DNA of 64,000 bases from assembly GCA_018066245.1 (NCBI GenBank), contig JAGHRT010000041.1:1-64000 (forward strand), written 5' to 3'. The DNA is from Candidatus Equimonas faecalis (GTDB taxonomy: Bacteria > Bacteroidota > Bacteroidia > Bacteroidales > Bacteroidaceae). Under the pieces are notes generated by a model that was given only the letters and a program-made list of their open reading frames with translations, searched no databases and had not been told where the DNA came from. Positions 33,731-53,072 of the stretch are shown here, one piece after another (the first letter of the stretch is position 1; the number at the start of each line of letters is the position of its first letter). Position numbers and translations under genes: made by a program.

Positions 33731-33821
33731 AAAACTACTCTATACACCAGGGAAAACTACTCTATACACTAAGGAAAACTACTCTATACACTAAGAAAAA
33801 CTACTCTATACACCAGGAAAC
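33731..33821. repeat. Type B repeat block between divergent promoters
   Basis: Four units at exactly 22-bp spacing, core ACTACTCTATACACTAAG or ACTACTCTATACACCAGG with AAA linkers. They lie between the divergent GH20 and WYL regulator promoters, about 50 bp upstream of the latter. Confidence 0.88.
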
Positions 33822-37348: not shown

Positions 37349-37485
37349 TACCGGCGGCTTACGCGAAAAAAACGGCGACTTACGCGAAACTGTCGGCGGA
37401 CTATTTTTTCCTATCGGCGGACTAAATTTTCCTATCGGCGGACTAAATTCATCTGTCGGCGGACTACGAAAAACTGTCCTGCCGG
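37349..37485 (+). repeat. Type A repeat block upstream of the dcw cluster
   Basis: Four clear A units at 21-bp spacing (core TRTCGGCGGACTA), preceded by two diverged units (CCGGCGGCTTACG, ACGGCGACTTACG). It lies within the 488-bp gap between gpmI and rsmH, upstream of the rsmH promoter. Confidence 0.92.
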
Positions 37486-37576
37486 CCCGACACGCGTTTC
37501 AAGGCGGAAAAAAGTCTGCAAGGTTAATAAAAAGAATTTTCCATAAGGAAAATGCCACGGATTGGTAAAAAAGCCT

Positions 37577-37584
37577 TAACTTTG
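37577..37584 (+). promoter_or_regulatory. Putative -7 element of the dcw cluster promoter
   Basis: TAACTTTG, 23 bp upstream of the GTG start of rsmH. No TTTG at the expected -33 distance. Confidence 0.5.
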
Positions 37585-37607
37585 CAGCGTAGAAAGAAAT
37601 ACCACCC

Positions 37608-38564
37608 GTGGAAAAGTGCCCCACATACCATATTCCCGTGCTTCTGGACGCCTCAGTAAGCTCACTTCTCACCAAGCCCGACGGCCTCTACGCCGACATG
37701 ACGTTTGGCGGAGGCGGCCACAGCCGTGAAATCCTAAGCCGCCTCAGCGGCAGCGGCCACCTCTACAGTTTCGATCAGGATGCCGATGCCGAGCAAGTCG
37801 CCGCCCAAGACTTCCAGGGGCAGGACAGGTTCACCTTCGTGCGCTCCAACTTCCGCTACCTGCGCAACTGGATGCGCTACTACGGCGTGGTGGACAGCGA
37901 GGGGCGCGGCGGACTGGACGGCGTGCTGGCCGACCTCGGCGTGAGCTCCCACCATTTCGACACCGAGGAGCGCGGCTTCAGCTACCGCTTCGACGCGCCT
38001 CTCGACATGCGCATGAACGGACGAGCAGGCCGCACCGCCGCCGACATAGTGAACCAAGCCGGCGAAGACGACCTGGCCCGCATCCTCCTGCTCTACGGCG
38101 AAGTGAAACAGGCCCGCGCCCTGGCCCGGCAAATCGTGCGCCAGCGGCAGCAAGCCCCCATCCTGACCACAGCCCAGCTCCGCGACATCGTAGAGCCCCA
38201 AGGCTCCACGTCCGCAGGCCGCCCCGGGCGCAGCCGGGGCCTCCTGCCGCAAGTATTCCAAGCCCTCCGCATGGAAGTGAACCACGAGATGGAAGCCCTC
38301 GAAGCCATGCTTGAGGCCAGCATCGCCTGCCTCAAGCCCGGAGGCCGCCTTGCAGTCATCACCTACCACTCGCTGGAAGACCGCATGGTAAAGAACATCA
38401 TGCGCAGCGGCAACGTCGAAGGCCGCATCCAGCAGGACTTCTACGGCAACCGCCTCAGTCCCATCCGCCCCCTCAGCAACAAAGTCATCACGCCCGGCCC
38501 CGAGGAGCAACAGCAAAACCCCCGCTCACGCTCAGCCAAGCTCCGCATAGCCGAAATCCTCTGA
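37608..38564 (+). CDS. rsmH: 16S rRNA (cytosine-1402-N4)-methyltransferase
   Basis: 318 residues starting at GTG. The SAM-binding motif MTFGGGGHSR (residues 31-40) and the C-terminal ITYHSLEDRMVKN and RSRSAKLR segments are typical of RsmH (MraW). It methylates N4 of C1402 in 16S rRNA. It is the first gene of the dcw cluster here; mraZ, normally just before it, is absent. The ftsL-like gene starts 17 bp downstream. Confidence 0.95.
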   Translation: MEKCPTYHIPVLLDASVSSLLTKPDGLYADMTFGGGGHSREILSRLSGSGHLYSFDQDADAEQVAAQDFQGQDRFTFVRSNFRYLRNWMRYYGVVDSEGRGGLDGVLADLGVSSHHFDTEERGFSYRFDAPLDMRMNGRAGRTAADIVNQAGEDDLARILLLYGEVKQARALARQIVRQRQQAPILTTAQLRDIVEPQGSTSAGRPGRSRGLLPQVFQALRMEVNHEMEALEAMLEASIACLKPGGRLAVITYHSLEDRMVKNIMRSGNVEGRIQQDFYGNRLSPIRPLSNKVITPGPEEQQQNPRSRSAKLRIAEIL

Positions 38565-38581
38565 CACACACCGCAAAGCCT

Positions 38582-38929
38582 ATGGCCAACAACAGCAAAG
38601 CCCCGAAAACCCGCAGCGCCAGCCCCCTGAAATACTGGCGCGAAGTGATGGGCGGAAAATACCTTATCGGCAACGGCATCCGCCGCAACATAAAGTATCT
38701 GCTCCTCATCATCCTGCTCGTCATCCTGTACATCAGCAACCGCTACATGTGCCAGCAGGCCATGTTGGAGGGGAAGGCTCTTTCCGACACCCTGACCGAC
38801 CGCCGCTACAAGGCACTCACGGCGCAGGGACAGCTGAAACGAGCCACCCTCCGCTCCCAAGTGGAAGAAAACCTCGCCGACAGCACCATCCGCACACCTG
38901 AAAAACCCGCCTTCGTCCTGCCCCGATGA
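38582..38929 (+). CDS. FtsL-like cell-division protein
   Basis: 115 residues with one membrane segment (about residues 38-56, YLLLIILLVILYISNRYM) followed by a short periplasmic helical stretch. Small bitopic proteins in this place between rsmH and ftsI are FtsL-type divisome subunits; the sequence itself is weakly conserved and the call rests on position, topology and size. Its stop overlaps the start of ftsI by 4 nt (ATGA), showing translational coupling. Confidence 0.75.
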   Translation: MANNSKAPKTRSASPLKYWREVMGGKYLIGNGIRRNIKYLLLIILLVILYISNRYMCQQAMLEGKALSDTLTDRRYKALTAQGQLKRATLRSQVEENLADSTIRTPEKPAFVLPR

Positions 38930-41316
38930 AAACCCAGCCAAAGAAAAGCCGCACTTCCGTAATGAACCGCTACTTTTTCGTAGTAGCGGGAGCATTCCTC
39001 ATAGGCCTCGTCATCCTTTTCAGGCTCTTCCACCTCTCTTTCGTAGAAGGAGACTACTGGAAGCGCGTAAGCCAGAAATTCATCCGCCAGAACCTCGAAA
39101 TACCCGCCCAGCGCGGCAACATCCTCGCCGCCGACGGCCAAGTACTGGCCACCTCCCTGCCCGAATACCGCCTTTACATGGATTTCATGGCCCACGACAA
39201 GGACAGCCTCGTGCAGCACCGGGCCCAAGTCTGGCGCGACTCCATTATCTGCGCCGACACGCTGCGCGTCATTCCCGGCCTGCTCAACCGAGCCAAGAAG
39301 CCGATACCCGAAAGCACCCAGCGGCAGCACATCGACAGCTGCCGGCGCACGCTCACTGCCCTGTGCCAGGGGATGCACCGCATCTTCCCCGAGATTGACC
39401 CCGCCGCCTTCCGTCAGCACCTCATCGAAGGCAGGGCCAAGCGGAGCCAGCACTGGCCGCTCTATCGGCGGAAGGTGTCGTACATCCAGTACCAGCAGGT
39501 GCGCAAGCTCCCCTTCTTTTCGCAAAGCACCCTACGCACGGGCTTCCACACCCAGGAGTACCGCACGCGGCAAAACCCCTACGGCAAACTGGCCGCACGC
39601 ACCGTGGGCGACCTCTACGGCGAGAAGGACTCCGCACGCTGCGGCCTGGAACTGTCCTTCGACTCCCTGCTCCGGGGCCGCCCCGGCTCATGCCACAGGC
39701 AGAAGGTGCTGAACCGCTACGTCAGCATCTTCGACCGAATGCCTGAGGACGGCTACGACATCCGCACCACGCTCGACATAGGCCTGCAGGACATCGTGGA
39801 GAAAGCCCTCGGCGAACAACTCGCCAGCATCGGGGCCGACTTCGGCATCTGCGCCGTGATGGAAGTCAGCACGGGCGACATCAAGGCCATCAGTTCGCTG
39901 GACCGCCTCAGCGACGGAAGCTACCGCGAGATAGGCAACCGAGCCATCAGCCTGCTGATGGAGCCAGGCTCCGTATTCAAGACGGTGAGCTTCATGGTAG
40001 GACTGGACGAAGGGGCCTTCACCCTCGACACACGAATCGACACCTACGGCGGCGTGTACGAGATGTACCGCCGCAAGATGAAGGACTCCAACTGGCGCAA
40101 GGGCGGCCACGGCAACATATCGGCCTCGGAGGTGCTCGAACACTCCAGCAACATCGGCACAAGCCGCCTTATCGACCAATTCTACCACGACCAGCCGGAA
40201 CGCTACGTCAAAGCCGTCTATCGCACCGGCATACACGACGACCTCCAGCTGCCGCTCGTGGGCTACGCCAAGCCGCGCATACGAATGCCCCGCAAGGACA
40301 AGACGGGCCGCTACTGGGAGAACTGGAGCAACACCGCCCTGCCGTGGATGAGCATCGGCTATGAGACGCAGGTGCCGCCCATCTCCACGCTGACGTTCTA
40401 CAACGGCATAGCCAACGGAGGCACCATGCTCTACCCGCGCTTCGTGAAGTCGGTGGAGCGGGGCGGCGAGGTCATCCGCGAGTACCCCGTGCGCGTGGCT
40501 CGGCAGCACATGTGCAAGCCGTCCACCATCCGCGACCTCCACAAAGCCTTGCGCAACACCGTGGTCAGGGGCACGGGCAAGCCCTGCGGCTCCAAGCGCT
40601 TCGCCGTGAGCGGCAAGACGGGCACGGCGCAGATTTGGACAAACCAGGGCAACACCAACCGCTACCTCGTCAGCTTCGTGGGCTACTTCCCCTCCGAGCG
40701 TCCGAAGTACTCAATGATCGTGTGCATCAAAAAGGCCAGTCCTGCCTACGGCGGTATGCACTGCGGCCCCGTGTTCAAGCGGGTGGCCGAGAGCATCATG
40801 GCGCAGCAGCGCGAGAAGAGCTACAAGACGGCTGCCGACACCCTACACGCCCGCCACGCCGTCATAAGGCCCGGCAACCTCCGCGCCACGCGGCAAGTGA
40901 TGAGCAACCTTAACATGAACGCCAGCGCAGGGAGCGCAGACGGCGAAACCGAAGGAAGCCAGTGGGGCTCAGCCGCGCACAGCGGCAACTCCTACGACCT
41001 GACCGCCGAGAAGGAGCAGAAGGGCCTCATGCCCGACCTGACGGGCTACGGCCTCCGCGATGCCGTCTATCGCCTGGAGCGGATGGGCCTGCGTGTCCAC
41101 ACGCGGGGCGTGGGCCGCGTAGTGAAGCAAAACGTCAAGCCGGGCAGCCCCGTGCGCCCGGGGGCAGCCGTCAGCCTTGAACTGTCTGCCGACGGAAAGG
41201 ACCTGCCCGATGAGCCGAAGCAGCCGGAGCAGCCGTCCGCCCCTCCCCAAAAGGAGGAGGCCCCGGCCCCTAAAGAAGCCGACACTGCCGGAGCGTCCGG
41301 AACTGCCGCCCAATAG
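38926..41316 (+). CDS. ftsI: Penicillin-binding protein with PASTA domain (FtsI/PBP3-type)
   Basis: 796-residue bitopic transpeptidase for septal peptidoglycan. A membrane anchor (FVVAGAFLIGLVILF) is followed by the pedestal domain and a transpeptidase domain with S349-V-F-K352, the S407-S-N motif and K564-T-G-T. Near residues 705-765 there is one PASTA domain (MPDLTGYGLRDAVYRLERMG), and the C-terminus is a Pro/Lys/Glu-rich tail. It overlaps the ftsL-like gene by 4 nt. After it a repeat block opens the first wide gap in the dcw cluster. Confidence 0.94.
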   Translation: MKTQPKKSRTSVMNRYFFVVAGAFLIGLVILFRLFHLSFVEGDYWKRVSQKFIRQNLEIPAQRGNILAADGQVLATSLPEYRLYMDFMAHDKDSLVQHRAQVWRDSIICADTLRVIPGLLNRAKKPIPESTQRQHIDSCRRTLTALCQGMHRIFPEIDPAAFRQHLIEGRAKRSQHWPLYRRKVSYIQYQQVRKLPFFSQSTLRTGFHTQEYRTRQNPYGKLAARTVGDLYGEKDSARCGLELSFDSLLRGRPGSCHRQKVLNRYVSIFDRMPEDGYDIRTTLDIGLQDIVEKALGEQLASIGADFGICAVMEVSTGDIKAISSLDRLSDGSYREIGNRAISLLMEPGSVFKTVSFMVGLDEGAFTLDTRIDTYGGVYEMYRRKMKDSNWRKGGHGNISASEVLEHSSNIGTSRLIDQFYHDQPERYVKAVYRTGIHDDLQLPLVGYAKPRIRMPRKDKTGRYWENWSNTALPWMSIGYETQVPPISTLTFYNGIANGGTMLYPRFVKSVERGGEVIREYPVRVARQHMCKPSTIRDLHKALRNTVVRGTGKPCGSKRFAVSGKTGTAQIWTNQGNTNRYLVSFVGYFPSERPKYSMIVCIKKASPAYGGMHCGPVFKRVAESIMAQQREKSYKTAADTLHARHAVIRPGNLRATRQVMSNLNMNASAGSADGETEGSQWGSAAHSGNSYDLTAEKEQKGLMPDLTGYGLRDAVYRLERMGLRVHTRGVGRVVKQNVKPGSPVRPGAAVSLELSADGKDLPDEPKQPEQPSAPPQKEEAPAPKEADTAGASGTAAQ

Positions 41317-41323
41317 ACCGCGC

Positions 41324-41412
41324 GAAACTGCCGGCGGGCTGCGGAAAACCGTCCTATAGACTAATTTTCACCGCCCTATAGACTAATTTTCACTATCCTA
41401 TAAACAAATTCC
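41324..41412 (+). repeat. Mixed A/B repeat block between ftsI and murE
   Basis: One diverged A unit (CTGCCGGCGGGCTG) and three B units (GTCCTATAGACTAA, GCCCTATAGACTAA, ATCCTATAAACAAA) at 21-22 bp spacing. The murE start is 64 bp past the block. Confidence 0.88.
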
Positions 41413-41476
41413 AACGCCCCCGCACACCACTTTCCCCTTACGCAGGAACAGGAAGGGGGCTCCCATAGACTACGCC

Positions 41477-42964
41477 ATGCTACTCCACCAACTCCTCCAC
41501 ACAGCCCAGGTGGACATCATCGCCGCCAGCCGTCCCACCGACGTAGAAATAAGCGACCTCAGCCTCGACTCCCGTCAGGTCCGCCCAGGCCACCTCTTCT
41601 TCGCCGTCAGGGGCACGCAGACCGACGGCCACGCCTACATCCCCACCGCGCTCAACCAGGGAGCCGCAGCCGTGGTGGGCACCGACACCGCCGAAAGCCT
41701 CACCCGGCGCGGCCTCCTGCCCGCCGATGCCGCCGCGCCCTACATACAAGTGGCCGACTGCCAGTCCATCGCAGGCACGGTGGCCACAGCCTTCTTCGGA
41801 CGGCCCAGCGAAAAACTGCGCCTCGTCGGCGTAACGGGAACCAACGGCAAGACCACCATAGCCACCGTGCTCTACCAGCTCCTGCGCGGCCTCGGCCACA
41901 AAGCCGGCCTGCTCAGCACCGTGTGCAACTACATCGACAGCCGCCCCGTGCCCGCCTCCCACACCACCCCCGACCCCGTAACGCTCAACCGCCTCCTGGC
42001 CGAAATGGTGGAGGAGGGCTGCACCTTCGCCGTGATGGAGTGCTCCAGCCACGCCATACACCAGCGCCGCATCGGCGGCCTCCAGTTCGCTGGCGGCCTG
42101 TTCACCAACCTTACCCGCGACCACCTCGACTACCACGGCACGCTGGAAGCCTACCGCGATGCGAAAAAAATGTTTTTCGACGGCCTGGCACCCACAGCCT
42201 TTGCCCTGACAAACGCCGACGACCGGAACGGAGCGTTTATGCTTCAGAACTGCGCAGCCCGCCGCCTGAGCTACAGCACCCGCGCAGCCGCCGACTACCG
42301 TGGCCGCATCATAGAGGAAAGCATCGAAGGGATGCTCCTCAGCATCGACGGCACCGAGGTGAGCGTCAGCTTCGTGGGCCGCTTCAACGTAAGCAACCTG
42401 CTGGCCGTCTATGGCGCCGCGCTGCAGCTGGGCTTCGACCGTCAGGACGTGCTGCGCGTCATGTCCACCCTGCGCCCCGTCAACGGGCGCTTCGAGGCCA
42501 TCACGTCGCCGCAGGGCTTGAGCGCCGTCATCGACTATGCCCACACGCCCGACGCACTGGCCAACGTCCTCACCGCCATCCGCGAGATAAGCCGGCTCGG
42601 CGGCAAAGTCATCACCGTATGCGGCGCGGGAGGCAACCGCGACAAAGGCAAACGCCCCCTCATGGCGCAGGAAGCCGTGCGGCAGAGCGACCGCGTCATC
42701 CTCACCTCCGACAACCCGCGCAACGAACAGCCCGAAGCCATCATCAGCGATATGCTGGCAGGCCTCAGCCCCGAACAGCGGCAGACCGTCCTTACCATCA
42801 CCGACCGCCGCCAAGCCATACGCACCGCCGTCATGCTGGCCGCGCCCGGCGACGTAATACTCGTGGCCGGAAAAGGGCACGAGCCGTATCAGGAAATCAA
42901 CGGCGTGAAGCACCACTTCGACGACCACGAAGAAGTACGCGCCGCCTTCCAAAGCCTATCCTGA
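41477..42964 (+). CDS. murE: UDP-MurNAc-L-Ala-D-Glu:meso-diaminopimelate ligase
   Basis: 495 residues, cytoplasmic Mur ligase. ATP site TGTNGKTT at 120-127; the DNPR motif (in [11 protein letters not shown]) that selects meso-diaminopimelate is present in the C-terminal domain. It adds the third residue of the peptidoglycan stem peptide. It lies between ftsI and mraY as in other dcw clusters, but with repeat-filled gaps of 160 and 99 bp on either side. Confidence 0.96.
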
Positions 42965-42970
42965 CAATCA

Positions 42971-43059
42971 GAAAAAACTATCCCGCCGATAGGAAAAACT
43001 ATCCCGCCGACAGGAAAAACCGTCGGCGGACTAAGAAAAACCGTCGGCGGACTAAGAAC
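42971..43059 (+). repeat. Type A repeat block between murE and mraY
   Basis: Four units at 21-bp spacing: two palindromic variants CTATCCCGCCGATAG and CTATCCCGCCGACAG, then two CGTCGGCGGACTAAG, all linked by GAAAAA. It fills nearly the whole 99-bp gap and ends 4 bp before the mraY start codon. Confidence 0.93.
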
Positions 43060-43063
43060 AGCC

Positions 43064-44335
43064 ATGCTATACTACCTTTTCCGCCTTCTTGAGAGCCTGG
43101 GCATCCCGGGCTCCGCCATGTGGAGCTACATCTCCTTCCGTGCCATCCTGGCCTTAATCTGTGCCCTCGCCATCAGCCTCTGGTTCGGCGAGCACTACAT
43201 CCGTTGGATGAAGCGGCGCAACATCAGCGAGGTGCAGCGCGACAAGAGCATCGACCCCTACGGCGTGCAGAAGAAAGGCGTACCCACGATGGGAGGAGTC
43301 GTCATCCTCGTGGCCGTCCTGGTGCCCTGCATCCTCCTGGGCCGCCTGCGCAACATCTACATGCTCCTCATGCTGGCCGCCACCCTCTGGTTCGCCGCGC
43401 TGGGCCTGCTCGACGACTACATAAAGGTGTTCCGCCACAACAAGGACGGCCTGGCCGGACGCTGGAAGCTGGCCGGACAGTTCCTCGCCGGCCTCGCCGT
43501 AGGCCTGACGCTCTACCTCTCGCCCGACGCGGTCATCCGCGAAAACATAGAGGTGGGCCAGCGGGGAGGCACCACACTGGTGGCCCACAGCCGCACCGAA
43601 GTAAAAAGCACCAAGACTACGATACCCTTCGTCAAGGCTAACAACCTCGACTATGCCGAAGCCGTAGGATTTCTCGGCGCTCACAAGCAAGCCGGCGGCT
43701 GGGTGCTGTTTGTGCTTATGACGGCGTTCGTCATCGCCGCCGTATCGAACGGCGCAAATCTCAACGACGGAATGGACGGCATGTGCGCCGGAAATTCAGC
43801 CATCATATACGTGGCTCTGGGCGTGCTGGCCTATGTGAGCTCGCACTTCGGCCTGGCGAACTACCTCAATACGATGTACGTGCCGGGCTCGCAGGAGCTG
43901 GTCATCTTCTGCTGTGCCATGCTCGGTGCGCTCATAGGGTTCCTGTGGTACAACACCTACCCCGCTCGTGTCTTCATGGGCGACACAGGCTCCCTGATGA
44001 TAGGCGGCACCATCGGCGTGCTGGCCGTCATCATCCACAAGGAGCTCCTCCTGCCCCTGCTCTGCGGCGTGTTCCTCCTGGAAAGCGTCAGCGTAATCTT
44101 CCAGACGGAGTACGCCAAGATGGGCAACCGCCGCGGCCAGAAATGGCGCGTGTTCAAACGCGCACCCCTCCACGACACATTCCGCGTCAAGCCCGAGGAC
44201 ATGATTCCCGGAGCCAAGTACATCTTCCGCAACTGGCCGCGCACGCCGGCCCTGGAGTCGATGGTAACAGTCCGCTTCTGGATTATCACCGTCCTGCTGG
44301 CAGCCCTCACCATCATAACGCTGAAAATCCGCTGA
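43064..44335 (+). CDS. mraY: Phospho-MurNAc-pentapeptide transferase
   Basis: 423-residue polytopic inner-membrane enzyme that makes lipid I from UDP-MurNAc-pentapeptide and undecaprenyl phosphate. The Asp-Asp pair in LGLLDDYIKVFRHNKDGL, the NLNDGMDGM segment and FMGDTGSL are all present. The length fits Bacteroidota MraY, which is longer than that of E. coli. The start codon directly follows a repeat block. Confidence 0.96.
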   Translation: MLYYLFRLLESLGIPGSAMWSYISFRAILALICALAISLWFGEHYIRWMKRRNISEVQRDKSIDPYGVQKKGVPTMGGVVILVAVLVPCILLGRLRNIYMLLMLAATLWFAALGLLDDYIKVFRHNKDGLAGRWKLAGQFLAGLAVGLTLYLSPDAVIRENIEVGQRGGTTLVAHSRTEVKSTKTTIPFVKANNLDYAEAVGFLGAHKQAGGWVLFVLMTAFVIAAVSNGANLNDGMDGMCAGNSAIIYVALGVLAYVSSHFGLANYLNTMYVPGSQELVIFCCAMLGALIGFLWYNTYPARVFMGDTGSLMIGGTIGVLAVIIHKELLLPLLCGVFLLESVSVIFQTEYAKMGNRRGQKWRVFKRAPLHDTFRVKPEDMIPGAKYIFRNWPRTPALESMVTVRFWIITVLLAALTIITLKIR

Positions 44336-44387
44336 CTACAGGCAAGGCGGACCGTCCGGAGCATCCGGACGTCCCAGCCCATAGGCC

Positions 44388-44460
44388 GCGAAAAACTATC
44401 GGCGGACTAAGAAAAACCATCGGCGGACTAATTCCCCCTATCCTATAGACAAGAAAACAC
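44388..44460 (+). repeat. Mixed A/B repeat block between mraY and murD
   Basis: Two A units (CTATCGGCGGACTAAG, CCATCGGCGGACTAAT) and one B unit (TATCCTATAGACAAG) at about 21-bp spacing, in a 138-bp gap; murD starts 13 bp past the block. Confidence 0.9.
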
Positions 44461-44473
44461 CCTCCCTACGCCC

Positions 44474-45802
44474 ATGAAAAAAATCGTAGTACTCGGTGCC
44501 GGCGAAAGCGGCGTAGGCACCGCCATCCTCGCCGCACAAAAAGGTTACGAAGTGCTCGTCAGCGACAGCGGCCAGATACCCGACCGCTACGTACAGATGC
44601 TCGAAGCCCACCAGATAACCTGGGAAGAGTGCGGGCACACTGCGTCGCGCATCCTCGACGCCGACGAAGTCGTGAAAAGCCCCGGCATACCCGACACCGC
44701 CCCCATCATTCAGGCCATCATAGACAACAGCATACCCGTCCTAAGCGAGATAGAGTTTGCCGCACGCTACACCAACGGACACTGCGTCTGCATCACAGGC
44801 TCAAACGGAAAGACCACCACAACCACCCTCATCCACTACATATTCCAGCGTGCCGGCCTGCGCGTCGGCCTGGCCGGCAACATAGGTCGCAGCTTCGCCC
44901 GACAGGTGGCCGAGGACGACAAGGACTGGTACGTCCTCGAACTCTCATCCTTCCAACTCGACAACATGTACGGCTTCCGCGCAGCCATAGCCGTGCTCAT
45001 GAACATCACGCCCGACCACCTCGACCGCTACGGCTACGACTTCCAGCGCTACACCGATGCGAAAATGCGCATCATCCAGAACCAGGACAAAAGAAACTGC
45101 CTGATATACTGGGCCGGCGACCCGACAGTGTGCCGCGAACTAAAGAAACGCGAGGGAGATTACCGCGCACCCGCCACCACCCCTACGGGCCACACCGCCG
45201 CCCCAGGCCACCCCAACCTCATCGGCTTCACCGACGACGCCTTCCAGCAACTCCAGCTCAGCTTCTCACAGATGGGACGCCACAACCAAAGGAACGCCAC
45301 CGCCGCCTACCTGGCCTGCCGAGCCGCCGGCATAGCCGACGACATCATACGCCAGTGCCTCGACGACTTCCCCGGCGTGGAGCACAGGCTGGAAAAGGTG
45401 TGCGAACAGGAAGGCGTGCTCTGGATAAACGACTCAAAGGCCACCAACGTAGATGCCTGCCTCGTCGCCCTCCAGGCCATGGACCGCCCCACCGTGCTCA
45501 TCGTCGGCGGCAAAGACAAGGGCAACGACTACACCGTGCTCCACGACATCATACGCCAGAAGTGCCGGGCCCTCGTCTATCTCGGCGCCGACAACGACAC
45601 CCTCCACCGCAACTTCGACGCCCTCGGCCTCCCCGTGGCCGACACCCACTGCATGGCCGACTGCGTAGCCGCCTGCCGAGGCTTCGCCGAGGAAGGCGAT
45701 GCCGTGCTCCTCAGCCCCTGCTGCGCCTCCTTCGACCTCTTCCGCAACATGGAGGACCGGGGCGAACAGTTCCGCGCCTGCGTGCGCCAGACAGCCGGAT
45801 AG
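44474..45802 (+). CDS. murD: UDP-MurNAc-L-Ala:D-Glu ligase
   Basis: 442 residues, cytoplasmic. The Rossmann-like start MKKIVVLGAGESGVG is followed by the ATP site TGSNGKTT at 108-115 and the conserved INDSKATN and LSPCCASFD segments of MurD. It adds D-glutamate to UDP-MurNAc-L-Ala. It precedes ftsW after a 97-bp gap filled by repeats. Confidence 0.96.
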   Translation: MKKIVVLGAGESGVGTAILAAQKGYEVLVSDSGQIPDRYVQMLEAHQITWEECGHTASRILDADEVVKSPGIPDTAPIIQAIIDNSIPVLSEIEFAARYTNGHCVCITGSNGKTTTTTLIHYIFQRAGLRVGLAGNIGRSFARQVAEDDKDWYVLELSSFQLDNMYGFRAAIAVLMNITPDHLDRYGYDFQRYTDAKMRIIQNQDKRNCLIYWAGDPTVCRELKKREGDYRAPATTPTGHTAAPGHPNLIGFTDDAFQQLQLSFSQMGRHNQRNATAAYLACRAAGIADDIIRQCLDDFPGVEHRLEKVCEQEGVLWINDSKATNVDACLVALQAMDRPTVLIVGGKDKGNDYTVLHDIIRQKCRALVYLGADNDTLHRNFDALGLPVADTHCMADCVAACRGFAEEGDAVLLSPCCASFDLFRNMEDRGEQFRACVRQTAG

Positions 45803-45805
45803 CCC

Positions 45806-45893
45806 GAACTGTCCCGCCGATAGGAAAAACTGTCGGCGGACTAATTTCCCCTGTCGGCGGACTAAGAAACACTCCCCTATAGACCACGAAACA
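45806..45893 (+). repeat. Mixed A/B repeat block between murD and ftsW
   Basis: Three A units (CTGTCCCGCCGATAG, CTGTCGGCGGACTAA twice) and one B unit (TCCCCTATAGACCACG) at 21-22 bp spacing. It begins 3 bp after the murD stop and ends 6 bp before the ftsW start. Confidence 0.93.
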
Positions 45894-45899
45894 CAACCC

Positions 45900-47138
45900 A
45901 TGACACTCCCCTCCTTCTTCCGCCTCAAAGGCGACACCGTCGTGTGGAGCATATTCTTCGCCCTCTGCTTCATCTCACTGGTCGAGGTATTCAGCGCCAC
46001 AAGTATGCTGGTATATCGCAGCGGCTCCTTTTGGGCTCCCTTCATCCGCCAAGGCGTATTCCTCGCCATAGGCACAGTCATCTGCATCGGCACACACTTC
46101 GTGCAGTGCCGCCGGCTCACGTTCATTTCCGCCCTGTGGCCCATCATCGTCGGCCTGCTGCTGCTCACCATCCTGATGGGCGACGAAACCAACGGAGCCA
46201 GCCGCTGGCTCTTCGGCTTCCAGCCCAGCGAGTTCGCCAAGGGCATTCTCGTCGCCACCATAGCCCTGATACTCTCGCGCTGCCGCGAGGGCAACGGAGT
46301 AAGCCGCATGGCCCTGCGCTACGTACTCGCCTTCACACTGCCCGTAGTCGCGCTCATCGGCAAGGAGAACGTCAGCACAGCCGTCCTCATCAGCGGCGTC
46401 GTGTACCTCATGATGTTCGTAGCCGGCATACCGCGCGGACAAATGATCAAGCTCACGCTCATCTGCGCCGTGCTGGGAGGCCTGGGCCTCCTGGGCGCAA
46501 AAGCCCTTCCCACCGACAGCGAAGCACCCTTCTACCAGAGTGCTCCGGGCTCCTTCCTAAAGCACCGCGGCCCAACCATACACAACCGCGTGTTCGGCAA
46601 GAGCCTCGTCATCACGCCCAACCCCGACAGCCTCGTAGTCAGCGACAAGAACATGCAGGTCGTACACGCCCGCATAGCCGTGGCCAACAACAACCACGGC
46701 CTCGGGCTGATGCCCGGCAACAGCGTAGAGCGCGACTACCTTCCCCAAGCCTACAGCGACTTCATCTATGCCATCATTGCCGAGGAAACCGGCATCTGGG
46801 GCGCCTCCATCGTACTCCTGCTCTACCTCATCCTGCTCTACCGCTGCGGAATCATAGCCAACCGCTGCGGACAGGACTTCCCCGCGTTCTTCGTCATGGG
46901 CCTCGGCGTACTGCTCACCGGCCAGGCCCTCCTCAACATGATAGTAGCCGTAGGCCTCGGCCCCGTAACGGGCCAGACCCTGCCGCTCATCTCGCGCGGC
47001 GGCACGAGCACGCTCATTACCTGCGCCTACATCGGAATGATTCAAAGCGTGGCGTGGAGCGGACTGCCCAAGAAAAAAGACAACCCCGCCGCTGCCGACG
47101 ATCAGCCCCAAGGAGAGGAAAAACCATCGGCGGACTAA
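45900..47138 (+). CDS. ftsW: FtsW/RodA-type lipid II polymerase
   Basis: 412 residues with about ten membrane segments (start MTLPSFFRLKG chosen; the longer frame reads backward through repeats and murD). SEDS-family hallmarks include ASRWLFGFQPSEFAKG, the NNHGLGLMPGNSVERDYLPQAYSDFIYAI loop region and a final SRGGTSTLITCAYIG helix. It polymerises septal glycan together with FtsI. The last codons and the TAA stop (47136-47138) lie inside a type A repeat, so the C-terminal KPSAD is repeat-derived. Confidence 0.94.
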   Translation: MTLPSFFRLKGDTVVWSIFFALCFISLVEVFSATSMLVYRSGSFWAPFIRQGVFLAIGTVICIGTHFVQCRRLTFISALWPIIVGLLLLTILMGDETNGASRWLFGFQPSEFAKGILVATIALILSRCREGNGVSRMALRYVLAFTLPVVALIGKENVSTAVLISGVVYLMMFVAGIPRGQMIKLTLICAVLGGLGLLGAKALPTDSEAPFYQSAPGSFLKHRGPTIHNRVFGKSLVITPNPDSLVVSDKNMQVVHARIAVANNNHGLGLMPGNSVERDYLPQAYSDFIYAIIAEETGIWGASIVLLLYLILLYRCGIIANRCGQDFPAFFVMGLGVLLTGQALLNMIVAVGLGPVTGQTLPLISRGGTSTLITCAYIGMIQSVAWSGLPKKKDNPAAADDQPQGEEKPSAD

Positions 47139-47220
47139 ATTTCCCTGTCGGCGGACTAATTTTTCCTGTCGGCGGACTAAATTCCCCTGTCGGCGGCCCA
47201 GTGCCCGCCACCCTACAGAC
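47116..47220 (+). repeat. Type A repeat block across the end of ftsW
   Basis: Four A units at 21-bp spacing (CCATCGGCGGACTAA, then CTGTCGGCGGACTAA twice and CTGTCGGCGGCCCA), then a diverged B-like unit. The first unit supplies the ftsW stop codon. Confidence 0.93.
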
Positions 47221-47261
47221 TGCCCGCATTCCCCCCTTAACCTCTAACAGCCAATCCCCCC

Positions 47262-47930
47262 TTGCCCACCTCCCCCGCCCTGATTCTCCACACAGGCAAG
47301 TACGCCGACGACCGCCTCGTAGTGGAAGCCTACACCCTCGAAGCAGGAGCCGTCAGCTTCATAACCCGCGTCAGCCACGGACGGGCGAAGGCACGCATCC
47401 CCCACACACTCTTCCAGCCCCTCGCCCTACTCGAAATCACCTGGCCTGAACAAGCACGCACCACCCTGCACAAGCCCCAGGCCGCACGCCCCCTCATCGT
47501 GGGCCACTCCATAGCCGCCCAGCCCGTCAAAGCCGCCCTCGCCCTCTTCCTCGCCGAATTTCTCCGAGCCGTACTGCGCCACGAACCGCCCGCCCCGCCC
47601 GTGTTCCACTTCTGTGCCCACGCCGTGCGCTGGCTCAACCTCGTCGAAGGCCGCCCCCTGGGCAACGTCCACCTCGCCATACTCGTGCGCCTCGCCACCC
47701 TCCTCGGCTTCCGGCCCACCCCCGAAGAACTCAGCCTCACCTGCCCCCAGCAATATCAGGCCGTACTCCCCCAACTCCTGCGCATCAACCTCGCCAACCA
47801 ACACCTATATCTATTTACGCGCGCGCAACGCGCGGAATTTCTACGCCAAATCCAGCTCTACTACAGCCGCCACTATCCCGCCTTCCCAGAGCTCAAAAGT
47901 GCCGAAGTGCTCACTCAGATTTTCGGATAA
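47262..47930 (+). CDS. recO: DNA repair protein RecO
   Basis: 222 residues, starting at TTG. The N-terminal OB-fold pattern (LILHTGKYADDRLVVEAYTLEAGAVSFITRV) and the helical C-terminal region typical of RecO are present; the family zinc site is absent, as in many RecO proteins. RecO loads RecA on single-stranded DNA together with RecR. It follows ftsW in place of murG and the other distal dcw genes. The start codon choice is tentative because no ATG lies near. Confidence 0.85.
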   Translation: MPTSPALILHTGKYADDRLVVEAYTLEAGAVSFITRVSHGRAKARIPHTLFQPLALLEITWPEQARTTLHKPQAARPLIVGHSIAAQPVKAALALFLAEFLRAVLRHEPPAPPVFHFCAHAVRWLNLVEGRPLGNVHLAILVRLATLLGFRPTPEELSLTCPQQYQAVLPQLLRINLANQHLYLFTRAQRAEFLRQIQLYYSRHYPAFPELKSAEVLTQIFG

Positions 47931-47973
47931 GCACCTAAAAACACAAAAAACAGCAAAAAAAACGCCCTAACGC

Positions 47974-48004
47974 TTGGCCAATTCAAAATAAAGCCGTACT
48001 TTTG
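47974..48004 (+). promoter_or_regulatory. Promoter of the tRNA-Glu / rpsT unit
   Basis: TTGG (47974-47977), 19 bp, TACTTTTG (47997-48004). It lies about 200 bp upstream of tRNA-Glu, so the repeat block in between would be transcribed. Confidence 0.6.
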
Positions 48005-48037
48005 CACCCGCAACTAAGCGAAAGAGCCACGCGCCCA

Positions 48038-48175
48038 CCGACAGTTGCCCCCATCCCAAGGGTAGTTTCCCCTACCCCTACGACAGGAAAAACCATCCTA
48101 TACGATAGTGGAAACTATCGGCGGACTAAAATTTCCTATCGGCGGACTACGAAAAACCATCGGCGGGATAGGAAA
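48038..48175 (+). repeat. Mixed A/B repeat block in the tRNA-Glu leader
   Basis: Diverged units (ACCGACAGTTG, CCTACCCCTACGACAGG), one B unit (CATCCTATACGATAG) and three A units (CTATCGGCGGACTAA, CTATCGGCGGACTAC, CCATCGGCGGGATAG). The last unit ends about 30 bp before the tRNA. Confidence 0.88.
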
Positions 48176-49484: not shown

Positions 49485-52400
49485 TCAGCCCTCAGCGGGC
49501 AGGAGCTCGTCGAGGAGCTGACGGAACACAGGGGCCTGGCGGAGCAGGGGCGCGTGTCCTACGAGAATGAGCCGTTCCATGGCTCGGGTCATGGCTACAT
49601 TGAGTTTGCGGTCGATGAGGTGGCCGTCCTCGCTGAAGGTGTGGGAGGTGAGGAAGCGCAACTGGTAGCGGCGCTGCACGGTGAAGCCGTAGATGATGAC
49701 GCGGCGCTGCGAGCCTTGGAAGCGCTCCACGGTGTCGATGGCCACACGGGCGGCCACGTCGTCGGGCAGGCGGGAGCGTATGGCGGCTATCTGGTTGCGG
49801 TAGGGCACGATGACCCCCACTTCGTCCTTCCAGCCGTTGTCGGTGATGAGGCGGGCGATGATGTCGGCCTCCACGGCGTTCACCTTGTCGGACAGGGGGT
49901 GAAGGGGCAATTCGGCGGGGATGAACTCCACGCGGGGGCCGTCGGCTGCGGCCTGCTGGTGGGGCAGGGGCACGGGGCGCAGGAGGCCGTCGTAGAAGGC
50001 GCGGTTGGGGAAATCGGCCACGTCGGGGTGCATACGCCCCTGGCTGGTGAGCATGTAGCAGACGGCGGGGTCGTGGCGATAGGCGTGGAGCAAGCGCTCA
50101 AAGAGGGACTGGCGGCAATCGCTCAGGCCGATTTGCTGCAAACCGGCGTCGGCCACGGCAGCCTGATCGGGCGACTGCTGCACCACGGCGGGCAACTGCT
50201 TGTGGTCGCCGATAAGGACAAATTTGCGTATGGCAAGGCCGCTTTCTCCCCCCGTAGGGCTGGCATTTCCTAGTCCGCCGACAGTTTTCCCTAGTCCGCC
50301 GACAGTTTCTCCTAGTCCGCCGACAGTTTCTCCTAGTCCGCCGACAGTTTCGGCTGCGGCTACGGCAGGCGGAGCCGTGGCTGCGAGAAGGGGAAGAAGC
50401 TGCGGCTCAAGAATTTGCGAAGCTTCATCGACAATGGCCAGACTGAACGAGCGGAGGCGGAAAAGCTCCTGATGGTTGCACAGGGCCGCCGTGGTGCCTG
50501 CGAACACGCGGATGCGGGCCACCAGGTCCCTGACCTCGGCGGCACTCTCAAGCGTGGCCACGCGGTTCTCCAGCAAGTAGGGGCGGCAAGCCTCGGAGCA
50601 GGACAGACTGCCGCCGATGCGGATGAAGTCAATCCCCGCCTCGATGAGCTTGGAGCAGGCTTCATCGACGGCGCGGTTGGTGTAGGACACCACAAGCACG
50701 GCGGCCTCGGGGCTCTCCAGCTCCTCGCACAGCGTGGTCATAAGGCCGAAGGACGTTTTCCCCGTGCCGGGAGGCCCTATTATGAGGAAAAGCTCACGAG
50801 CCTGGCGGACGCGCAGGGCGAGGTCGTTGAATGCGCCGTAGTCGCCGCGCAGCCGCAGCGACGCGTCCACCTCGGGCTTGCGCTGGAGCAGCACGAGGTC
50901 GCGCCGGCGCCGGGGTGCCGACAAGAAGGCGTGGAGTCCGCGGAAGAGGGTGGCCGACGATGATTCGTAGAAGTCGTGCTCCACGGCCCAGCGTATGGGG
51001 CGGCCGTCCGTGCGGGGCGGGTAGAAGAATCGCGCCGTGCTCTGCGGAGCCCGCAGGCGCAGGGTGATGCGCCCTCCCCGCAGTTCGGCCAGCGTGCCGC
51101 GCAGGCAGGGTGTACGCCGCAGGTCGGGTTCGTCGCCCTCGGCGTAGGGATAGACCACCACAATGTCGCCCTGGCGGAAATTGGCCGCCTGCCCCTCCAC
51201 GCAGGTCAGCAGGCCGGCATCGTCAGCCGCAGGGTCCGTGCCGGCCAGTCCGTGCGAAGCCTCTGGCCAGGCCAGCGTTACCTCCGCCACGTCGGTAGCC
51301 TCCGCGCCACTCGGGCTGACAAGGGTCAGGCCGGCGTATATATTGCCTGCAAGAAGCTTATCGGCAAGCGTGTCGTGCCACGACGCGGCAAAGCCCGACC
51401 CCTCCTTTTGCGTGTTGCCCACCTTGCCCAGTATGTGCTCCGTGCTGACAAAGCGCAGGAAGCGGAGGTAGTAGGACCGCTCAAGGGGCGAGGCGGCGTG
51501 TACGGGGCTGAGCAGGGCCTCCAACTCGGGCCTCTTGTATTGCTGCCAGAGCTTCTCGCTGCCCTGCTTCTGGCGGAGTTTGTCGGGCGTGAGCGTCAGG
51601 AGCACGTCGTAGCCCTTCTCGGCATAGAGTTGCTCACAGCGTGCCATCTGGTTGCGGAGCTGCAGCGCGAGGTGGAGGAGGCGCGGCGCGGGAGCCACGT
51701 TGAGCAGCCCCTTTCGGTACTTGCTGTAGAGCAGGAAGGGCATCACTTGCTCGTTGGGCAGGTCCAGGCCATAGTGGAGCACCGCCATGTAGAGCAGGGC
51801 CTGCGCGTAGTGCTTCTCCTGCGCCACCGGCACCTCGGGGTCGGCGTTGGGAGGCCAGCCGCCCTTCCCGCCTTTCTGCTCAAGCAGGACGCGGAAGTCG
51901 AGTTGCAGCATGTCCATACGCCCCTGCAAGCCCAGGGTTTCACAGAAAAAGGTCGGCTCCAGCACCACGGCGGAGGAGCGGAAACCCTTCACGTGGGCGT
52001 TCAGCCCGGCCCGCACCGCCTCGCGAATGTTGGCGGCCTGGCGCTGCGCATCCTTATGGAACGTGTCGGGCAGCGGCGTGGTGGCCAGCAGGAGCGGGTA
52101 CTGGCGGAAGAAGTCGCGGGCACTCTCGGCGTAGGGGCGGTCAAGGCCGCGCAACGACTCGTCAAGCATCTGGCTCGCAAACTGCCCCAGGAGAATAGGG
52201 GCGGTGGCCTGGTCGGCACGGAGCCTGCTCAGGAGATGCACGGCGGGGGAGTCGGCATAGCTCTCCATACAGGAGACCACGGCCGTTATATCCATCAGCA
52301 AATCGGGCTCCAGGATGAGGAGCTCGGGATGAAGCACCCCGTCGGGGGCTCGGTGGGGGCGCACGACGTTGAGCTGGGCCCCTTCGTGCAGGAGCTTGGC

Positions 52401-52946
52401 CAGATAGCTCCAGTCCCGCCCGTAGAAATAAGGATTGGAGGGGCCGTAGTCCACGGTCAGGGTCTGGCCGTCGGCCTCGTTGCACTGGCCCGTAACAGTG
52501 GTGGGCGTGAACGCGCTCACCACCAGCCTGAGGCACGGCGCCAGCCCTTCGTCGGTCGTCTCGGCCGGGTCGCGCACGGCAGCGGGGAGCCGGCCAAGAA
52601 GATCGGCGGGCACGGGCACGGCATACAGCCACGCCACCCAATCGGCCACGGCCCGCACGTCGGCAGCGGCGTGGAAGGCCTGTCCGTCGGCAGAGGCATG
52701 GCGCATACGGCTACGAGCCGCATTGACACGCCTGCGGAGCCGGGCAGGCACGCCCTGCTGGTTCATCAGATAGTTGAGCTTGGCAAAAAGGGAGGGGTGC
52801 TGGAGGTGCGTGAAGCGGGTGAACGGCTCCACGCTGCGCCGCAGGACGGCACGGAGCAGGCGGTAGGTCTGGGGCGCGGCGGCCTGGAGGGCTTCTTCAA
52901 GGTCGCGGTAGAGCTCCTCGGCGGAGCTGTCGTAATTGTCGGGCAT
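49485..52946 (-). CDS. Dna2-like nuclease/SF1 helicase with heptapeptide insertion
   Basis: 1153 residues (start MPDNYDSSAEE; the longer frame overlaps the opposite gene and its promoter). The N-terminal half holds a PD-(D/E)XK nuclease core, GLQGRMDML (~339) and LLEQKGGK (~358). The C-terminal half is a UPF1/Dna2-type superfamily 1B helicase: GPPGTGKTS (~722), VDEASQ, IGDHKQLP, TSQGRMHP, VERFQGSQ, NVAMTRA. The combination suggests DNA end or flap processing, possibly defence-related. Between motifs II and III (residues ~864-893) lies GETVGGL repeated about four times, read from type A repeats. Apart from this insertion all helicase motifs look intact. Confidence 0.88.
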   Translation of the reverse strand: MPDNYDSSAEELYRDLEEALQAAAPQTYRLLRAVLRRSVEPFTRFTHLQHPSLFAKLNYLMNQQGVPARLRRRVNAARSRMRHASADGQAFHAAADVRAVADWVAWLYAVPVPADLLGRLPAAVRDPAETTDEGLAPCLRLVVSAFTPTTVTGQCNEADGQTLTVDYGPSNPYFYGRDWSYLAKLLHEGAQLNVVRPHRAPDGVLHPELLILEPDLLMDITAVVSCMESYADSPAVHLLSRLRADQATAPILLGQFASQMLDESLRGLDRPYAESARDFFRQYPLLLATTPLPDTFHKDAQRQAANIREAVRAGLNAHVKGFRSSAVVLEPTFFCETLGLQGRMDMLQLDFRVLLEQKGGKGGWPPNADPEVPVAQEKHYAQALLYMAVLHYGLDLPNEQVMPFLLYSKYRKGLLNVAPAPRLLHLALQLRNQMARCEQLYAEKGYDVLLTLTPDKLRQKQGSEKLWQQYKRPELEALLSPVHAASPLERSYYLRFLRFVSTEHILGKVGNTQKEGSGFAASWHDTLADKLLAGNIYAGLTLVSPSGAEATDVAEVTLAWPEASHGLAGTDPAADDAGLLTCVEGQAANFRQGDIVVVYPYAEGDEPDLRRTPCLRGTLAELRGGRITLRLRAPQSTARFFYPPRTDGRPIRWAVEHDFYESSSATLFRGLHAFLSAPRRRRDLVLLQRKPEVDASLRLRGDYGAFNDLALRVRQARELFLIIGPPGTGKTSFGLMTTLCEELESPEAAVLVVSYTNRAVDEACSKLIEAGIDFIRIGGSLSCSEACRPYLLENRVATLESAAEVRDLVARIRVFAGTTAALCNHQELFRLRSFSLAIVDEASQILEPQLLPLLAATAPPAVAAAETVGGLGETVGGLGETVGGLGKTVGGLGNASPTGGESGLAIRKFVLIGDHKQLPAVVQQSPDQAAVADAGLQQIGLSDCRQSLFERLLHAYRHDPAVCYMLTSQGRMHPDVADFPNRAFYDGLLRPVPLPHQQAAADGPRVEFIPAELPLHPLSDKVNAVEADIIARLITDNGWKDEVGVIVPYRNQIAAIRSRLPDDVAARVAIDTVERFQGSQRRVIIYGFTVQRRYQLRFLTSHTFSEDGHLIDRKLNVAMTRAMERLILVGHAPLLRQAPVFRQLLDELLPAEG
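50270..50350 (-). repeat. Type A repeat block inside the Dna2-like helicase gene
   Basis: Four A units at exactly 21-bp spacing, nearly identical (CTGTCGGCGGACTAGG on the coding strand). They encode tandem GETVGGL heptads. Orientation relative to the gene is opposite to that in uvrA. Confidence 0.95.
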
Positions 52947-53016
52947 GTAGTTTGGTCTGTTCGGGGGGGGCGACGGCCGTAGAAAAGGCGCGATATAGCC
53001 GAAAGTATGGGAAAGT

Positions 53017-53048
53017 TTTGGCCACCTCGGGGGAAAAGCGTAACTTTG
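53017..53048 (+). promoter_or_regulatory. Promoter of the acyltransferase gene
   Basis: TTTG (53017-53020), 20 bp, TAACTTTG (53041-53048). The predicted transcript would begin at about 53055, close to the first in-frame ATG (53058). Confidence 0.65.
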
Positions 53049-53072
53049 CAGGTGTAAATGTGCCCATTGAGT

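Follow-up and report, generated by a model that had tools for sequence, protein, structure and literature searches.

What are the short periodic repeats that fill the gene junctions of a cell-division cluster in the bacterium Candidatus Equimonas faecalis? The cluster occupies positions 37349-48175 of a 64,000-nucleotide stretch of its genome (GenBank contig JAGHRT010000041.1, positions 1 to 64,000; hereafter the window), where two types of repeat unit, A and B, had been recognized from the sequence alone. We found that A and B units are one modular design set on a strict 21- or 22-bp lattice, that the family is private to its species but dispersed through its chromosome and into its genes, and that arrays of similar period in other letters are statistically linked to genes for long HU-HIG proteins. 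We lean slightly toward the reading that A/B blocks are arrays of putative dimer sites, part of an order-wide class tied to proteins that join HU to a winged helix-turn-helix domain (HU-wHTH), and that they have spread in this species.

A and B units share one design and one lattice

The window (59% G+C) comes from a Bacteroidales genome of 2.59 Mb in 62 contigs (completeness 89.84), here called G000; other G numbers denote relatives, with G009 being the sister species. The nearest named relative found is a metagenome-assembled genome from horse faeces (JAKSLT010000008.1; 83% MraY identity). Detailed statistics of G000 were obtained from 845 kb (844,819 bp), comprising the window and 781 kb more, with genes called by our own codon model. 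Reversed patterns or reversed sequence served as the chance control for cores and for the unit model.

A listing of arrays with lags of 20 to 23 across the 845 kb yielded a modular unit: an arm of 5 bp, a core of 5 or 6 bp, a second arm of 5 bp, and a linker of 6 bp, for a total of 21 or 22 bp. Arms are CTATC, CTGTC, CTACT, CTACC, CTAGT, and similar variants. The type A core has 5 bp (GGCGG or CCGCC) and the type B core 6 bp (GTATAG, CTATAC, CTATAG, and similar), while the largely A/T-rich linkers are most often GAAAAA (56 of 301) or TTTTTC (32 of 301), the remainder being variants. The model matches 596 sites, compared to 85 in the reversed sequence, and 431 of the 596 fall in the lattice. 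Neighbours are spaced by 21 bp (131 cases), 22 bp (170), or 42-44 bp (25), and only three other intervals of up to 60 bp occur (18, 45, and 50 bp, one each); the reversed sequence has no neighbours within 60 bp at all. Even though the lattice filter would have admitted linker gaps of 4 to 8 bp, the linker measures 6 bp in all 301 in-lattice pairs, irrespective of whether these are A-A (104), A-B (27), B-A (30), or B-B (140). The plain A pattern (up to 2 mismatches) gives 105 same-strand neighbours no more than 110 bp apart, and the spacing is exactly 21 bp in 97 of these. Cores and linkers both occur in either orientation, and the orientation of a linker is nearly independent of that of the core. 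The sequence-only reading had proposed interchangeable cores with common linkers, both orientations, and a 21/22-bp phase as the key property, and all three proposals hold. What changes is that A and B are versions of a single modular design, which differ in having a 5- or a 6-bp core.

The length of the linker is far better conserved than its letters. Measured from whichever of the two commonest linkers is nearer, the 301 linkers carry 458 substitutions and not a single length change. In other dispersed intergenic repeats of G000 (blocks masked), 323 pairwise alignments, which are not independent of one another, contain 400 gap openings and 4,071 mismatches. At that rate, about 45 linker length changes would be expected if substitutions were independent. 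Shared descent within blocks lowers this expectation, yet zero stays far off.

In the window, the A core CTRTCGGCGGACTA occurs 20 times exactly, 31 times with up to 1 mismatch, and 37 times with up to 2, and the B core CTRTCCTATAGACTA occurs 8 times with up to 2 mismatches and 20 times with up to 3. The unit model finds 17 blocks of 34 A and 24 B units, and degenerate units at 41328-41407, at 44396-44452, and at some block edges score below it. With these added, the earlier estimates of about 40 A cores and about 20 blocks agree with ours; the figure of about 35 for type B was somewhat high.

The family is private to its species and dispersed in its genome

A search with up to 1 mismatch recovered 329 A cores in the whole of G000 versus 3 for the reversed pattern, and a search with up to 2 mismatches recovered 147 B cores versus 3. 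Across 24 genomes of the same genus and 16 of the same order, the corresponding numbers per genome are 0-4 (like the controls) and 0-10. No match to the tandem A-A pattern turned up in a collection of 84,980 species or in viral contigs, two collections from which the own or very near genomes were possibly left out; these zero matches speak against a phage origin and against wide spread of the pattern. The A/B family is private to its species.

Within the 845 kb, 130 blocks of 2-7 units (445 units in total) cover 9,113 bp (1.08%). The family is spread through the chromosome, as had been suggested: cores are not rare outside the window, and the spacing there is still 21-22 bp. Of these blocks, 78 lie in co-directional junctions, 14 in convergent and 14 in divergent ones, 22 inside genes, and 2 at edges. 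A block is present in 106 of 407 intergenic regions of at least 30 bp, that is, in 14 of 36 convergent, 14 of 44 divergent, and 78 of 327 co-directional regions. Hence, the claim that blocks occupy most gene junctions is true of the cell-division cluster but not of the genome.

Relatives carry arrays of the same build in other letters

In the noncoding DNA of 80 Prevotella-like loci, coverage by lag matches peaks at lag 22 (1,673 bp, 22 loci), with 996 bp (16 loci) at lag 21, 601 bp (9 loci) at lag 23, and 1,059 bp (12 loci) at lag 44, compared to 113 bp (2 loci) at lag 19 and 131 bp (2 loci) at lag 25. Lags 10, 14, and 16 are likewise raised (867, 966, and 906 bp). In total, 116 loci of relatives (2.22 Mb) contain 140 noncoding tandem arrays. 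A period of 21-23 bp is found in 59 of the arrays, and 17 of these 59 contain a significant inverted repeat (P ≤ 0.05). The same holds for 0 of 57 arrays with periods of 12-17 bp, 1 of 10 with 18-20 bp, and 0 of 8 with 24-35 bp (1 of 75 combined), and for 2 of 6 arrays with periods of 40-45 bp (at 43 and 41 bp).

Three families illustrate the build. The G057 family, TTCCCA-NNN-TGGGAA with a 7-bp A/T-rich linker, has 91 matches versus 0-2 in 8 genomes. Its cores (ACG/CGT) and linkers (TAAAATG/CATTTTA) occur in both orientations, and 47 of 48 neighbours are spaced by 22 bp, the odd one being an 8-bp overlap (5 of the 48 are counted twice, because locus L078 holds two of the same places). The G007 family, AGGAAG-TTAAG-CTTCCT, has 14 matches versus 0-3 in 14 genomes, with the core in both orientations. 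Family F1 of G009, GGCCACAG-CTGTGGCC with a period of 23 bp, has 118 matches, a count that spans both strands and takes palindromic sites on each, versus 0-10 in 10 other genomes. Lengths of arm, core, arm, and linker differ among families (5/5-6/5/6, 6/3/6/7, and 6/5/6/5) and only their sum of 21 to 23 bp is constant, which rejects a constant half-site spacing. Curved DNA from phased A-tracts is not a general principle either, because in the G007 family the linkers do not consist of A-tracts. Judged by their sequences, relatives carry the same build in other letters: sites every 21-23 bp, many of them dyad-symmetric, private, and dispersed. This recurrence of the design in other species, and the presence of blocks inside genes, change the picture drawn from the window.

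Some further arrays were noted. F1 copies (L286, L162, L163, L190, and L160) share outer ends near TTAGTCGGCATTTAGTC and GTCGGCGAAAGC, so that F1 looks like a miniature inverted-repeat transposable element (MITE) built around a phased array, and TTAGTC and GCCGAC within it recall the A unit of the window. In G000, a 22-bp repeat (GGATTAAGTTATGCGCGTATAT) of nearly 8 units lies just downstream of a Sir2-family gene (L144:6609-6777; C39:86609-86777). A long 21-bp array without a clear palindrome (AAGTTATCATTCATTGTG) is found in G026, from another family (L198:1703-1915).

Arrays of this class are linked to long HU-HIG genes

HU-HIG proteins, in which an HU domain is fused to a wHTH, an immunoglobulin-like (Ig), or a glycine-rich motif, were reportedly described in 2017 by Burroughs and others. 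Two single-locus arrays of G000 that are not A/B (C15:148703-148794, GCCACCCGGGTGGC; C24:73832-73915, GCGACCCGGGTCGC) precede two related genes, both of which match Pfam HU-HIG (PF18291) and extend into a C-terminal domain. All ten genomes searched next contain PF18291 matches, some of which are ordinary HU, which the model also matches in controls. Long HU-HIG genes (about 190-220 aa) with upstream arrays are 4 of 4 in G009, one in G008, two in G019, and two in G018 (one weak); the long gene of G057 has no array upstream. An order-wide search with one G000 protein matched 20 of 247 genomes (its own included) and brought in genes from other genera and families. The palindromes differ from gene to gene, and many of the order-wide genes are again preceded by palindromes of their own.

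An upstream array is present at 23 of 30 long HU-HIG genes and at 38 of 483 control genes (Fisher's exact test, P = 9e−18), where the controls have at least 120 bp of noncoding DNA upstream, come from other loci and partly other genomes, and include many mutual orthologues. An array was scored as at least 28 of 44 matches at lag 21-23 within 350 bp upstream. The 23 genes comprise 11 of 12 from the genus plus G057 and 12 of 18 from the order-wide search, and without the discovery pair the fraction is 21 of 28. At other lags (15-19 and 25-29), the HU-HIG genes do not clearly exceed the controls (1 of 30 versus 10 of 483). The strictest threshold printed gives 18 of 30 versus 24 of 483. A first version of the test (stricter low-complexity filter, lags 20-24, 40-bp window, and one control set) gave 18 of 30 versus 22 of 308; the filter was relaxed after the data had been seen, the stricter one having hidden two arrays visible by eye (G000 C15 and G251 C4). 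The 18 order-wide genes are those of 45 matches outside G000 that had a retrieved locus and at least 172 aa, with one of 325 aa dropped; the remainder were set aside for want of a locus or as short or interrupted genes. Among the 30 proteins, one (G211 C4, 172 aa) may be without a winged helix, and it and its near-copy G105 C6 were left out of the alignment of 28 proteins. The array class is thus statistically linked to HU-wHTH genes.

At 20 of the 30 genes, the array is at least 55 bp long, mostly about four units, and in eight of these 20 it starts 6 to 22 bp past a TAnnTTT(G/A) box, near the transcript start (a count without a control). The profile of the 28 aligned proteins matches HU/IHF structures at positions 28-119 (E down to 2e−11) and, weakly, winged-helix regulators at 129-188 (E of 8e−4 to 1.4e−3). 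All 28 match PF18291, and single members match HTH families. Near-identical HU-HIG proteins of G008 and G019 have arrays with common arms (TTATCA/TGATAA) and different cores, which fits a core that is not read by the protein. Dispersed families also reach such genes: one copy of F1 and one of the two known places of F4, both in G009, are at HU-wHTH genes, and the G007 family has two of its blocks (around C9:136184) at HU-HIG genes.

Short HU-HIG genes were judged by eye only. In G000, one has three A units about 200 bp upstream (C13:30146) and another has A/B-like units downstream (C6:10668), which says little because about a quarter of intergenic regions hold blocks. In G007, six of seven short genes (about 140-148 aa) have 22-bp arrays just downstream of the stop codon (L169:13882-13948 and 15655-15717; L278, L279, L280, L281, L255, and L263); a winged helix was not seen in these proteins, and G018 C14:87380 also has a downstream array. 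At L311 (G076 C147), two different 22-bp repeats of about 8 units in total follow each other 38-215 bp upstream of a long HU-HIG gene. A 4-unit array of period 22 with palindrome GGCACACGTGTGCC, known from a single locus of G000 (L123:4602-4689; C15:64602-64689), has as neighbours the genes for a leucine-rich repeat protein and a DUF3472 protein, with no adjoining HU-HIG gene.

Arrays as putative sites for HU-winged-helix proteins

We propose that the A/B unit would be an imperfectly dyad-symmetric site for a dimeric protein that reads double-stranded DNA, with two 5-bp half-sites, the arms, flanking a core that is hardly read. The arms of A/B units are symmetric as classes (CTRNY/RNYAG), with identical arms in only 22 of 431 units. 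Successive units would stand exactly two helical turns apart and so align neighbouring dimers along one face of the helix. The best-documented members of the class stand just upstream of long HU-HIG genes, which encode HU and a C-terminal winged-helix-like domain. Here the winged helices may read the arms, the HU dimer may bend or clamp the DNA, and an array at the gene's own promoter may provide autoregulation. Copies of an array could then spread both through tandem duplication in place and through insertion elsewhere in the genome, and the A/B family would be such a spread array, presumably with a reader of the HU-HIG type. This explanation is well supported for the class; it extends to A/B by likeness of build only.

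Several observations weigh against this explanation. Arms within an A/B unit match at 2.55 of 5 positions, below the 2.86 of shuffled arms, making the units poor palindromes, and 42 of the 59 arrays of period 21-23 bp in relatives lack a significant inverted repeat. By score, 7 of the 30 long HU-HIG genes have no upstream array. The two long HU-HIG genes found in G000, whose assembly is about 90% complete, have promoter arrays that are not A/B, and none of the five HU-HIG loci read in G057 has a copy of that genome's dispersed family. Units in co-directional junctions show a strand bias that a purely double-strand role does not predict: 64 A units run with the genes and 32 opposite to them, and the corresponding counts for B are 29 and 79. 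Finally, none of the 106 intergenic blocks lies within 30 bp after a TAnnTTTG (−7) box, compared to 140 of 2,431 random intergenic placements. Because many arrays of HU genes do start there, A/B blocks, if bound, would have another role or be excluded from promoters.

If the HU-wHTH explanation is right, the arrays at HU genes would be operators, a known kind of element, and what is new would be the phased build, the private codes, and the spread. A bacterial chromosome with hundreds of species-private, sequence-specific sites in fixed register with the helix would be out of the ordinary. The HU-wHTH link makes the idea testable, since each protein has its own predicted array, and it might account for the scattered 22- and 23-bp minisatellites of Bacteroidales as well. 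The many natural protein-array pairs would further allow one to learn how HU-fused winged helices change specificity. A broader conjecture, possible but rather doubtful, is that Bacteroidales carry a fast-evolving, two-part chromosome address system of HU-winged-helix proteins and two-turn-phased palindromic arrays. Each protein would have an array at its own promoter, in some lineages one code would have spread to tens or hundreds of sites, even coding ones, with A/B as such a code on about 1% of G000, and each species would rewrite its nucleoid code; we regard this part of the conjecture as equally doubtful.

Arrays in the cell-division cluster and in-frame insertions into conserved genes

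In the cluster, NCBIfam names RsmH and phosphoglycerate mutase and detects a penicillin-binding transpeptidase; the labels ftsL, murE, mraY, murD, and ftsW are our presumed assignments from sequence and gene order. Arrays stand in six junctions and before tRNA-Glu (all from the core search, the unit model, or both). The array of the gpmI-rsmH junction (37349-37467, plus strand), upstream of rsmH, has degenerate units followed by four A units (37390-37467). The ftsI-murE junction holds a degenerate A and three B units (41328-41407, plus strand; core search), murE-mraY four A units with two cores inverted (42978-43054), mraY-murD A-A-B (44396-44452, plus strand; core search), and murD-ftsW A-A-A-B (45809-45886). 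Four A units (47124-47201, plus strand) cover the 3′ end of ftsW and the next junction, with the ftsW stop codon in the first unit, and B-A-A-A precedes tRNA-Glu (48093-48171, plus strand; unit model). A comparison of orthologous junctions, which had been suggested as a check, showed that five are longer in the window than in G009 and G055: ftsI-murE (160 bp versus 45 bp and a 4-bp overlap, respectively), murE-mraY (99 versus 49 and 46 bp), mraY-murD (138 versus 15 and 25 bp), murD-ftsW (97 versus 75 and 34 bp), and ftsW-next gene (123 bp versus a 38-bp gene overlap in both). Given that the arrays are absent from other relatives, additions in G000 are favoured over losses elsewhere.

Blocks have also entered reading frames. 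Units number 70 A and 6 B inside genes compared to 130 A and 234 B between genes (Fisher's exact test, P = 8e−21), an excess of A that is expected if 21-bp steps preserve the frame. A Pfam scan of 16 of the 19 host genes identified TamB, LptD, MutL, PriA, and UvrA, as well as an RlmL-type methyltransferase, a pterin-binding enzyme, a cytidine-deaminase-like protein, an alpha-2-macroglobulin-like protein, and MmeI. Relative to UvrA of eight relatives in the genus, UvrA of G000 has an in-frame insertion of 50 residues that contains the block A-A-B-A (28842-28920) and a second one of about 35 residues, near the 3′ end of the gene, that contains three A units (26713-26769); both blocks were found with the unit model. 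In-frame spread into conserved genes (UvrA, MutL, PriA, LptD, and others) shows how such sites invade a genome. Three hosts of in-frame inserts are uvrA (window 26645-29686) and, on other contigs, mutL and priA; a bias of repetitive extragenic palindromic (REP) elements toward repair genes has been suggested, according to the accessible part of PMC3733652.

Alternative explanations

The blocks could instead be a selfish mini-repeat without host function, whose units are multiplied locally through slippage or unequal exchange, whose blocks hop or are copied, and whose period reflects exact copying. Of 45 pairs of adjacent unusual linkers within blocks, 27% are identical versus 0.9% of random pairs, indicating that units do multiply in place by local tandem duplication. 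Also, 17 pairs of blocks share at least 34 bp exactly, compared to a mean of 1.55 and a maximum of 4 in 20 runs with re-assembled blocks, indicating that some segments were copied between places. In-frame inserts in unrelated conserved genes and the MITE-like common ends of F1 point in the same direction. On the other hand, exact copying leaves the missing linker length changes, the recurrence of the 21-23-bp period in unrelated sequences with other part lengths, and the excess of such arrays at long HU-HIG genes without explanation. Overall, we consider a purely selfish origin unlikely, but worth keeping in view.

REP-like elements, organized as in bacterial interspersed mosaic elements (BIMEs) and mobilized as single-strand hairpins by a Y1 transposase (REP-associated tyrosine transposase, RAYT), resemble A/B in being short, high in copy number, mostly extragenic and partly intragenic (including in uvrA, as the portion of PMC3733652 available describes for REPs), species-specific, and dispersed. 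G000 has three Y1_Tnp genes, B arms often end in GTAG (AGTAG in 60 and GGTAG in 22 of 431 right arms), and single strands of G057 blocks form strong folds (mean z of −7.6 over 15 blocks). The REP tag speaks neither clearly for nor clearly against A/B: the A consensus has neither GTAG nor CGTC, and in B units GTAG is part of the arm. Arms of A/B units are less complementary than shuffled ones, and G000 blocks fold only modestly (107 blocks, mean z of −2.3, 43% below −2). The sequence-only reading had named a REP-associated transposase gene as something to look for. No A/B or F1 unit lies within 350 bp on either side of the Y1 genes (three in G000, four in G009), several of which are flanked by other palindromes, as are the three of G000 by other repeats. 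With the transposase flanks negative and the lattice a poor fit, a REP/RAYT identity is not supported, and we give it little credence. At least one of the Y1_Tnp genes of G000 (L186, L187, and L188) is flanked by REP-like palindromes (GTAGCGTCTTCCAGACGC), which are probably a separate REP/RAYT system within the genome.

We find it similarly hard to credit that an ordinary global transcription regulator with no relation to HU uses the blocks as operators multiplied over a large regulon. The 5-6-5 bp arrangement of arm, spacer, and arm is like that of many dimeric HTH operators, and the blocks prefer intergenic DNA (106 of 130). Against this stand the 22 blocks inside genes, an occupancy that is not tied to promoters, and the avoidance of the zone just past promoters; since not one of 106 blocks directly follows a −7 box, we reject a promoter-proximal operator role for A/B.

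Elements acting in RNA, such as terminators, stabilizers, or binding sites on transcripts, are very unlikely. Many blocks are co-directional and nearer to the upstream stop codon (median of 48.5 bp) than to the next start (87.5 bp), units there have the strand bias given above, and arrays of HU genes often begin just past the −7 box and hence in the 5′ end of the transcript. But 14 blocks are divergent and 14 convergent, folding is weak, an Rfam scan of the window matched two tRNAs and nothing else, and RNA has no need for a fixed two-turn period. Folding, arm complementarity, orientation, and Rfam do not favour a hairpin or RNA function for A/B, while the strand bias still speaks for some role of transcription. 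Judged by the repeat layout (cas genes were not searched), the blocks are not CRISPR arrays, as their linkers are 6 bp and not unique spacers of about 30 bp.

Other arrays in the window

The remaining blocks of the window lie on both sides of the cluster. Upstream, the unit model found B-A-B (439-497, also read in the sequence), 4 B units (12534-12615), 5 B units with cores CTATAT/CTATAG (21005-21108), 3 A units with the last core inverted (24954-25010, also in the core search), B-B-B-A (30489-30569), and 4 B units of the CTACTCTATACACTA type between divergent genes (33735-33816); Tandem Repeats Finder (TRF) also reported the blocks at 21005 and 33735. TRF and the sequence further revealed a third core type (GCCTGCGTTAGGAG and a run of A) in the same build, with a period of 20-21 bp (8508-8591). 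Another REP-like palindromic family (CCGTAGGG...CCCTACGG) occupies positions 1-470, adjoining the first block. Downstream, four exact A units (50270-50347, minus strand; core search and unit model) lie inside a helicase-like gene (49485-53954, minus strand) and translate as TVGGLGE-like repeats. They are followed by A-A with a degenerate B (54037-54094; core search and unit model), 3 B units between divergent genes (56987-57046; TRF and unit model), and B-like units of the CTCTCCTATACGATG type running into B-A-A (58881-59011; TRF and unit model).

Comparison with known systems

Within a thin literature search, we know of no described operator array for the HU-HIG family. ARG boxes are phased tandem operators with palindromic sites about two turns apart; A/B differs from them in having hundreds of sites, in being private to a species, and in lying inside genes too. 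The small dispersed repeats of cyanobacteria share with A/B units of 20-odd bp dispersed in a lineage but are not known to have been described as phased arrays. The co-evolution of arrays and proteins that the broader conjecture would imply for Bacteroidales can be likened to that of eukaryotic satellites and their binding proteins.

REP/BIME elements, as far as the accessible parts of PMC3733652 and PMC2817692 describe them, are likewise small, palindromic, intergenic, species-specific, and high in copy number, and are sometimes in frame in repair genes. A/B is unlike them in its weak hairpins, its strict head-to-tail two-turn lattice, and the lack of units next to Y1 genes. The REP tag is a tetranucleotide, GTAG or CGTC, at the base of a complementary stem (PMC3733652, in part). 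The same portion of that source notes double REP insertions in the uvrA genes of Thioalkalivibrio and O. terrae; the two inserts in uvrA of G000 form a striking parallel. It also describes Rickettsia palindromic elements that insert in frame into genes that stay open, a property shared by A/B inserts, which differ as phased arrays with frame-keeping 21-bp units.

Among the matches listed in a thin literature search, we recognized nothing of the phased array class beyond REP and BrickBuilt of Porphyromonas gingivalis. The part of PMC4596501 available describes BrickBuilt as 23-bp head-to-tail repeats without spacers at 19 intergenic sites, with a leader, a tail, IS5-like terminal repeats, and 1 to 22.8 units, confined to P. 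gingivalis and P. gulae; it also cites 22- and 41-nt tandem repeats in strain W83. BrickBuilt and A/B are alike in belonging to the same order and in being short head-to-tail repeats that are intergenic, dispersed, and narrow in host range. A/B differs in its 2-7 units per block, its 130 blocks in 845 kb, its exchangeable 5- or 6-bp cores, and its inserts in genes, and no flank corresponding to a leader or tail was shared by eye (not systematically) among the A/B blocks read. As far as the accessible description goes, BrickBuilt is the nearest described relative in the order, and F1 of the sister species is closer to BrickBuilt than A/B is.

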